A DNA stretch of 64,000 nt from CAVSKL01 sp963728475 [NCBI: Candidatus Eiseniibacteriota bacterium] (GTDB taxonomy: Bacteria > Eisenbacteria > RBG-16-71-46 > JABDJR01), in the NCBI GenBank assembly GCA_963728475.1, contig CAVSKL010000002.1, forward strand, positions 496,001 to 560,000, in the 5' to 3' direction. Below the pieces are notes generated by a model. The model was not told the DNA's origin. It saw only the letters and a list, made by a program, of their open reading frames with translations, and did not search any database. Positions 56,969-58,742 of the stretch are shown here, in pieces. Each line of letters begins with the position of its first letter. The stretch's first letter is position 1. The position numbers and the translations under genes were made by a program.

Positions 56969-57283
56969 ATGACCGACATCGAGACCGAGGAGGTCACCGG
57001 CGACGAGCATCTCGCCGCGCTCGAGCGGCTGGAGAAGAAGGTGGAACGGGCGCTGGAGGCGGTGTCCCGGATGCGCGAGGAACGCAACGGGCTGAGGGCG
57101 CGGACCGCGGAGCAGGAGGGTGAGATCCGGCGGCTCACCGGCGAGCTCACCGGCTCCCGGGAGACCGGGGAGGAGATCGCCCGGCTGGAGAGGGAACGCG
57201 ACGAGTTGTTGCGGGACCGGGCCGCCACCGCCCGGCGGATCGAGACGATTCTCGAGCGCCTGGACGGGCTCGGCCTCGAGTGA
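56969..57283 (+). CDS. Small coiled-coil protein, ZapB-like
   Basis: 104 residues. Residues ~15-95 are a continuous heptad-repeat coiled coil rich in Glu/Arg/Leu (LERLEKKVERALEAVSRMRE). No other domain. Genes with this form often precede zapA and are proposed to help cell division, but the ZapB identity is by position and shape only. Not a membrane protein. Confidence 0.75.
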   Translation: MTDIETEEVTGDEHLAALERLEKKVERALEAVSRMREERNGLRARTAEQEGEIRRLTGELTGSRETGEEIARLERERDELLRDRAATARRIETILERLDGLGLE

Positions 57284-57319: not shown

Positions 57320-57613
57320 ATGGCGAAGACGGTCAACGAGACCTCGGTTCAGATCCGCGGGTCCTCGTACCAGATCCGCACCGATCTCAGCCCGGAGACC
57401 CTGACCCGCATCGCTCACTACGTGGTCGGGAAGATGGACGAGCTGGACCCCAAGGGGACCGCCCCCCCCGCCCGCCTCTCCGTGCTCGCATCGCTCAGCA
57501 TCGCCGGCGAACTCCTCGACGAACAGGAACGTCAGCGCGCGATGCGCGCGGCGGTGAGCGCGCGGTTGACGCGGCTGGAGGAACTGCTGGACTCCGCGCT
57601 CGGCGCGGACTAA
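57320..57613 (+). CDS. zapA: Cell division protein ZapA
   Basis: 97 residues. VQIRGSSYQIRTDLSPETLTRIAHYVVGKMDEL is the ZapA N-terminal fold (starting ~residue 10), with LSVLASLSIAGELLDEQER beginning the C-terminal coiled coil. Promotes FtsZ bundling at the division site. The downstream region carries a candidate structured RNA, recalling the zapA-ssrS (6S RNA) neighbourhood in other bacteria. Confidence 0.9.
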   Translation: MAKTVNETSVQIRGSSYQIRTDLSPETLTRIAHYVVGKMDELDPKGTAPPARLSVLASLSIAGELLDEQERQRAMRAAVSARLTRLEELLDSALGAD

Positions 57614-57751
57614 CATGGTTTGTGAGCGGCGTAATCCGCGGCTCCGTCGCGCGGAAGCGGACGGGCCGGCCGGCGGCGGCGCCGGCGGACGACAACACTG
57701 ACAAGGCTTTGAGCGGCCCGGAAGCCCGCTTCCGGATCGCGGGAAACGGAT

Positions 57752-57780
57752 TTGAAGATTCCCTGCCCTGTCCGTGATGA
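57752..57780 (+). promoter_or_regulatory. Promoter of the candidate RNA after zapA
   Basis: TTGAAG (57752-57757), 17-nt spacer, TGATGA (57775-57780). The predicted start (~57788) coincides with the beginning of the paired 5' end of the RNA. Confidence 0.55.
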
Positions 57781-57787
57781 CTCCAGG

Positions 57788-57906
57788 TATTTTTGAGCCA
57801 ACACCTAAGCTTCGGGAGCTCGAACTCCGGACGGAGTGACGCCCGCGATGGCGGGAGACGCGAACTCCGGAATAGGGCGCCCACCTCTAAGTTTAGGTTC
57901 AAAAAC
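57788..57906 (+). ncRNA. Candidate structured RNA between zapA and ymdB, possibly 6S RNA
   Basis: The ends pair: TTTTTGA (57790-57796) with TCAAAAA (57899-57905), and CCTAAGCTT (57804-57812) with AAGTTTAGG (57889-57897, one G-U pair), leaving a 7-nt bulge. Inside are hairpins ACTCC-GGAC-GGAGT and CCCGC-GATG-GCGGG and a repeated GAACTCCGGA that could pair alternatively. The AT-rich closing stem stands out in this genome. Its own promoter precedes it. Position after zapA and terminal pairing suggest 6S RNA (an RNA polymerase regulator), but at ~119 nt it is shorter than typical 6S and the central bubble is not convincing. A riboswitch for ymdB/folD is an alternative. Confidence 0.6.
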
Positions 57907-57944
57907 CCGAATCACACGGCATCCGGCGGGGAATTTTCTTTTAC

Positions 57945-58742
57945 ATGAACTTGCTCTTCATCGGCGACGTCGTGGCCAAGCCGGGGCGCCGCGCCCTCCA
58001 GAGCTTCCTTCCCGGGCTCCGCCGCGAGCTCGCGGTGGACGTCATCGTCGCCAACGGTGAGAACCTCGCCGGCGGTTCCGGCCTCACCCGCGACACCGCC
58101 TCCGAGATGTTCGCCTGCGGGGTGGACGCCCTCACCGGCGGCAACCACCTCTTCGACAAGCGGGACTCCCACGACTACATCGACGCCGAGCCCCGGGTGG
58201 TGCGCCCGGCCAACTATCCCCCCGGCACTCCCGGTTACACCCTGGCCTTCGTGGATGCCCCCGGAGGAAAGCTGGCGGTGGGGTGCGTGCTGGGACGGGT
58301 GTTCATGCGCCCGCTCGACGATCCCTTCCGCGCGGTCGATCTCCTGGTGGAACGCGCCCGCGACGGCAACGCCCACTACCTGGTGATGGACGTCCATGCG
58401 GAGGCCAGCTCGGAGAAGATGGCGCTGGGCTGGTACCTGGACGGCAAGGCGTCGCTGGTGGCGGGCACTCACACCCACGTGCCCACCGCCGACGAGCGGA
58501 TTCTGCCCAAGGGCACCGCCTTCATCACCGACGTGGGGATGACCGGGCCTTACGATTCGGTGATCGGGATGGAGAAGGACTCGGTCCTCGCCCACTTCCG
58601 CACCGGAATGCACCACCGCTTCCAGCCCGCCTTCGGGGACGTCCGTCTCTACGCCGTGCTGGTGGAGCTGGACGAGGCCACCGGAAGGGCGCGCTCCATC
58701 CGCCGGGTGGAGCGGCGGCTGGCCGACGAGGAGAGATCATGA
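57945..58742 (+). CDS. ymdB: Metallophosphoesterase, YmdB family
   Basis: 265 residues. MNLLFIGDVVAKPGRRAL, VANGENLAGGSG, TGGNHLFDKRD, MDVHAEASSEKMAL, GTHTHVPTADERI and GMTGPYDSVIG contain the metal-binding residues of the YmdB-type phosphodiesterase family (TIGR00282), one member of which cleaves cyclic nucleotides. Physiological substrate unknown. The ribosome binding site is poor. The next gene, folD, starts inside its stop codon. Confidence 0.92.
   Translation: MNLLFIGDVVAKPGRRALQSFLPGLRRELAVDVIVANGENLAGGSGLTRDTASEMFACGVDALTGGNHLFDKRDSHDYIDAEPRVVRPANYPPGTPGYTLAFVDAPGGKLAVGCVLGRVFMRPLDDPFRAVDLLVERARDGNAHYLVMDVHAEASSEKMALGWYLDGKASLVAGTHTHVPTADERILPKGTAFITDVGMTGPYDSVIGMEKDSVLAHFRTGMHHRFQPAFGDVRLYAVLVELDEATGRARSIRRVERRLADEERS

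Follow-up and report, generated by a model that had tools for sequence, protein, structure and literature searches.

The locus downstream of zapA in the 64,000-nucleotide stretch of DNA that we analysed (hereafter, the window) raises the question of whether the structured RNA encoded there belongs to the 6S family or represents a new RNA. A preliminary description of the sequence had allowed for either, with the 6S RNA regarded as divergent. The search that it proposed with the Rfam 6S model (RF00013) returned a match of 92.5 bits (E-value in the window 3.9e-17) that spans model positions 1–187 of 187 and has twice the gathering score of 46.4 bits. Because the match covers the whole model, the length of the ssrS gene can be set at approximately 180 nt. 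6S RNAs are described as rod-shaped molecules of 160–200 nt (PMC8414754), and the window RNA has this architecture, with 45 standard pairs distributed along a 180-nt rod with a closing stem, a central bubble and an apical arm (Table 1). Six of the 51 pairs of the RF00013 model are non-standard or missing in the window RNA, which counts against the assignment. The minimum-energy fold of the matched segment (−81 kcal/mol) was not equalled by any of 200 shuffled sequences (z −5.42), and the rod was retained in a 321-nt fold (z −3.79; 0 of 100 shuffles), in a window with a G+C content of 70–74% (8-kb steps). We are all but certain that the RNA downstream of zapA is a canonical 6S RNA (ssrS). It is a new member of the family, ordinary but for an unusually strong predicted central switch helix. 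The finding can therefore be put down to a housekeeping RNA, with likely ends at 57757 and 57936.

Table 1. Features of the 6S RNA locus, in window coordinates.
Feature	Position	Strand	Support or pairing
zapA, usual upstream neighbour of 6S	57320..57613	+	PF05164, 48.6 bits (cut-off 23.8)
6S RNA gene (ssrS), ~180 nt	57757..57936	+	RF00013, 92.5 bits; fold z −5.42
Closing stem, 5' side	57758..57775	+	pairs with 57916–57934; 16 standard pairs
Helix beside central bubble, 5' side, with conserved TGAGCC (57794–57799)	57790..57799	+	9 pairs with 57896–57905
Predicted template position for product RNA initiation	57802	+	alignment with E. coli U44
Predicted central bubble collapse helix, 5' arm	57803..57812	+	pairs with 57889–57898 in minimum-energy fold
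Apical arm, with both facing GAACTCCGGA copies	57814..57882	+	Rfam alignment, minimum-energy fold
Predicted central bubble collapse helix, 3' arm; competes with 57797–57799 of the open form	57889..57898	+	
Helix beside central bubble, 3' side, with conserved GGTTCA (57896–57901)	57896..57905	+	pairs with 57790–57799
Closing stem, 3' side	57916..57934	+	pairs with 57758–57775
ymdB-like phosphoesterase gene	57945..58742	+	PF13277, 336 bits

The preliminary description was right to place a structured RNA behind zapA. It misjudged the size at ~119 nt, which it called unusual, because the inner pairing was mistaken for the closing stem. What it took for an AT-rich closing stem is pairing that flanks and spans the central bubble, and the 3' side of the true closing stem falls outside the coordinates that it covered (57752–57906). 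It also assigned the RNA a promoter of its own, TTGAAG-N17-TGATGA. The first hexamer (57752–57757) begins 5 bases ahead of the RNA, the second (57775–57780) lies within it, and the pair scores 5 of 12 relative to the consensus. A separate new RNA of ~119 nt, with the AT-rich inner stem as its closing stem and transcribed from this promoter, would agree with the stability of the inner unit, since positions 57786–57906 alone beat the shuffles (z −3.52; 0 of 200). Yet the RF00013 match is full length, the outer stem that such an RNA leaves out covaries in 12 of its 16 pairs, and the TGATGA of its promoter sits inside the RNA. On these three grounds we rejected the 119-nt unit together with its promoter, and regard this reading as having practically no chance of being correct. 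The repeat reported earlier, GAACTCCGGA, is present at 57822 and 57862. TCCGGA reads the same on both strands, which lets the two copies sit opposite one another as the two sides of one apical-arm helix. One opposite-strand copy elsewhere in the window brings the matches to three (0.32 expected).

Conservation of the 6S structure was assessed in a plain MAFFT alignment of 42 rows, comprising the window RNA and the 6S RNAs of 41 relatives with scores over the Rfam cut-off. Twelve of the relatives came from genomes reached via ymdB relatives (22 searched, 13 with a match); these ymdB relatives were among the matches listed, and closer ones may exist. The other 29 belong to the phylum that includes G008 (an Acidobacteriota record), where 166 of 247 genomes had a match and 148 a match over the cut-off. 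The 41 are the best-scoring matches, and L108 was dropped as below the cut-off. The window 6S is 46.1–60.6% identical to these relatives and shares conserved motifs with them and with E. coli ssrS. When its Rfam structure (45 standard pairs) was mapped onto the alignment, 77.4% of the cells were paired, versus 69.4% in shuffles and no more than 47.8% after the structure had been slid. Furthermore, 33 of the 45 pairs had changes on both sides with pairing kept, and none of 500 shuffles reached any of the five covariation measures. The 12 closing-stem pairs that changed on both sides yet still paired bear out the expectation, voiced in the preliminary description, that the two ends of the RNA would pair in relatives; the inner stem to which it had applied this was not the closing stem. 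The helix beside the bubble had 83.3% of its cells paired and such changes in four of its nine pairs. The inner arm was less regular, with multi-pair helices that keep 48.5–90.4% of cells paired. Because the same model had served to pick the relatives, the covariation supports the assignment to the 6S family and is no independent proof of it. A consensus fold computed from the alignment alone included both closing stem and apical hairpin and missed the helix beside the bubble, which counts against the assignment.

A 6S RNA was found in four of the 20 ymdB loci scanned, which were taken from at least 80. In the phylum of G021 (a Latescibacterota record), strict filters that lose weak matches left no above-cut-off 6S match in any of 64 genomes. 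The same phylum contained one weak, below-cut-off match (33.5 bits), in G021 itself. It also contained the best match to the PheT protein of the window, in G039 (44% identical). The window would therefore come from a different phylum or be an exceptional member of this one. A blastn search of plasmids with positions 57700–57960 gave no match, and a scan of viral contigs identified no relative of ymdB.

The gene neighbourhood is also consistent with a 6S RNA, as the preliminary description had suspected from the zapA-ssrS location. A zapA gene on the same strand lies no more than 400 bases upstream of 6S in 32 of the 41 genomes. A ZapB-ZapA-6S-(YgfA) array is known in beta- and gamma-proteobacteria, as described in PMC7641849. 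E. coli K-12 likewise has zapA upstream of 6S; its annotated order is zapA-ssrS-fau (ygfA), whereas the window has ymdB next. Upstream of zapA lie pheT and a short ZapB-like gene, and downstream of ymdB are folD, xseA, xseB and a farnesyl diphosphate synthase gene. The short coiled-coil gene adjoining zapA (56969–57283) barely passed the Pfam ZapB threshold (32.9 bits, cut-off 31.5). Between zapA and 6S we also identified a perfect inverted repeat, CCGGAAG-CCCG-CTTCCGG (57718–57735), without a trailing T run.

The start of ymdB only 9 bases past the end of the 6S match could point to a leader element that controls ymdB translation, with no free regulatory RNA. A putative ribosome-binding site for ymdB, GGCGGGGAA (57926–57934), lies in the closing stem and would fit such a role. 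However, ymdB is not the steady neighbour of 6S; zapA is. The ymdB gene follows 6S within 300 bases in three of the 41 genomes and within 4000 bases in 19. In 14 genomes the distance is 1.6–1.8 kb, and L013, the one of these that was read, has an RNase Y gene (PF12072) in between. The window keeps the common order of zapA followed by 6S and has ymdB immediately after it, as in three of the 41 genomes. We consider a dedicated ymdB leader very improbable and retain the reading as a 6S RNA. The overlap of GGCGGGGAA with the 3' side of the closing stem is an observation in its own right. Because the possible ribosome-binding site (ATG at 57945) is within the stem, folding of the 6S RNA could hide it, and control of ymdB could still be a side effect of 6S in this genome.

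Neither hexamer scoring nor a consensus scan revealed a recognisable promoter just upstream of the 6S RNA, which counts against the assignment. Immediately before 57757, no hexamer pair exceeds 4 of 12, a score that 90% of 2000 randomly chosen window positions match or surpass, and the stricter consensus scan of positions 57600–58060 found no promoter-like site. Since 19 of the 41 relatives reach at least 8 of 12 just upstream of their 6S RNAs, the score of the window is on the weak side. Transcription may proceed from an unrecognised promoter, or the RNA may be cut from a zapA-6S-ymdB transcript.

As described in published accounts, 6S RNA competes with promoters for the housekeeping holoenzyme, which is freed via the synthesis of a short product RNA (PMC8414754; PMC8876501; PMC12005410). 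By analogy with the family, the rod of the window RNA would mimic an open promoter and bind the RNA polymerase holoenzyme carrying the housekeeping sigma factor. The polymerase would then copy a short product RNA from the 6S template and be released. We infer that the role of the window 6S is to sequester the housekeeping polymerase until the product RNA is made. The product RNA of E. coli is reported to start at U44 (PMC8876501), and C57802 of the window aligns with this base. From this alignment, the product RNA is predicted to start opposite C57802 with the sequence 5'-GUUGGCUCAAAAAU; the predicted start can also be given as GUUGGCUC. With less confidence, we propose that the helix beside the bubble gives way to the product RNA, so that the freed 3' strand may pair with the 5' bubble strand and form a collapse helix (57889–57898 with 57803–57812) that would help release.

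Two ways of rearranging the bubble are described in PMC8876501. In E. coli-type 6S, a hairpin forms in the 3' bubble strand during release, whereas a central bubble collapse helix has been inferred for B. subtilis 6S-1 and for the 6S RNA of Aquifex. The window RNA resembles E. coli K-12 ssrS in its RF00013 membership, the TGAGCC and GGTTCA motifs beside the bubble and the CGGCA in the closing stem. It differs in its 3'-strand hairpin, which is weak (−1.7 kcal/mol, versus −5.2 kcal/mol in E. coli by the same measure). 6S RNAs from the phylum of G008 (Acidobacteriota; L013) share with the window their motifs, length and, in most of those examined, an upstream zapA. Most of them have a 3'-strand hairpin of the ACCTG...CAGGT type, unlike the window, which is at most 60.6% identical to any aligned relative. 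To compare bubbles more broadly, we used a set of 103 rows: the 42 aligned sequences, 40 matches from the phylum of G008 (the 42 that ranked next, less two longer ones in G114 and G127), 20 controls and E. coli. The controls, from 26 matches, were 15 Bacillus/Neobacillus and five Alphaproteobacteria sequences, two of the latter below the cut-off. Among the 83 non-control rows, which include the window and E. coli, 71 have a 3'-strand hairpin of −2 kcal/mol or stronger.

The minimum-energy fold of the window RNA shuts the central bubble with the ten pairs of the collapse helix. As a duplex, the helix has an energy of −11.9 kcal/mol, and the next among the 42 aligned sequences has −6.7 kcal/mol. 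Four of 60000 shuffles, which preserve base composition only, reached −11.9 kcal/mol, a frequency that becomes ~0.007 after allowing for the 103 sequences. When the 5' arm was extended by three bases, the window ranked first of the 103 at −14.6 kcal/mol (next, −11.1; E. coli, −2.8); this figure overstates the helix because the three added bases are part of the apical arm, and −11.9 kcal/mol is the cleaner value. The collapsed form is predicted to be 2.5 kcal/mol lower than the open form (−81.0 vs −78.5) and to remain when the product-RNA site is masked. The window was also the only one of the 83 non-control rows in which the collapse pairing stood out (p<0.05). None of the 15 Bacillus/Neobacillus rows did so, which indicates that the measure does not detect the published B. 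subtilis helix.

The sequence of the window RNA would suit a collapse-helix way of release. As described in PMC8876501, the 5' bubble strand of B. subtilis 6S-1 pairs with the 3' strand of the adjoining helix, and by this description the window RNA is alike. Its helix differs from that of 6S-1 in having ten uninterrupted pairs and in being favoured in the predicted free RNA. A more far-reaching and rather unlikely scenario is that the 6S of this lineage swapped the E. coli-type release hairpin of the 3' bubble for a very stable ten-pair collapse helix competing with the open bubble in the free RNA. Such a 6S would be bistable, with polymerase binding governed both by its folding and by the synthesis of product RNA. 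If real, the collapse helix would offer a natural variant for studying how 6S RNA releases RNA polymerase. In the predicted free RNAs, the expected collapse pairs exceed the TGAGCC pairs in 10 of the 42 aligned sequences, which, like the Bacillus/Neobacillus result, counts against collapse-helix release in the window RNA. Collapse itself is therefore not specific to the window, but its strength is.
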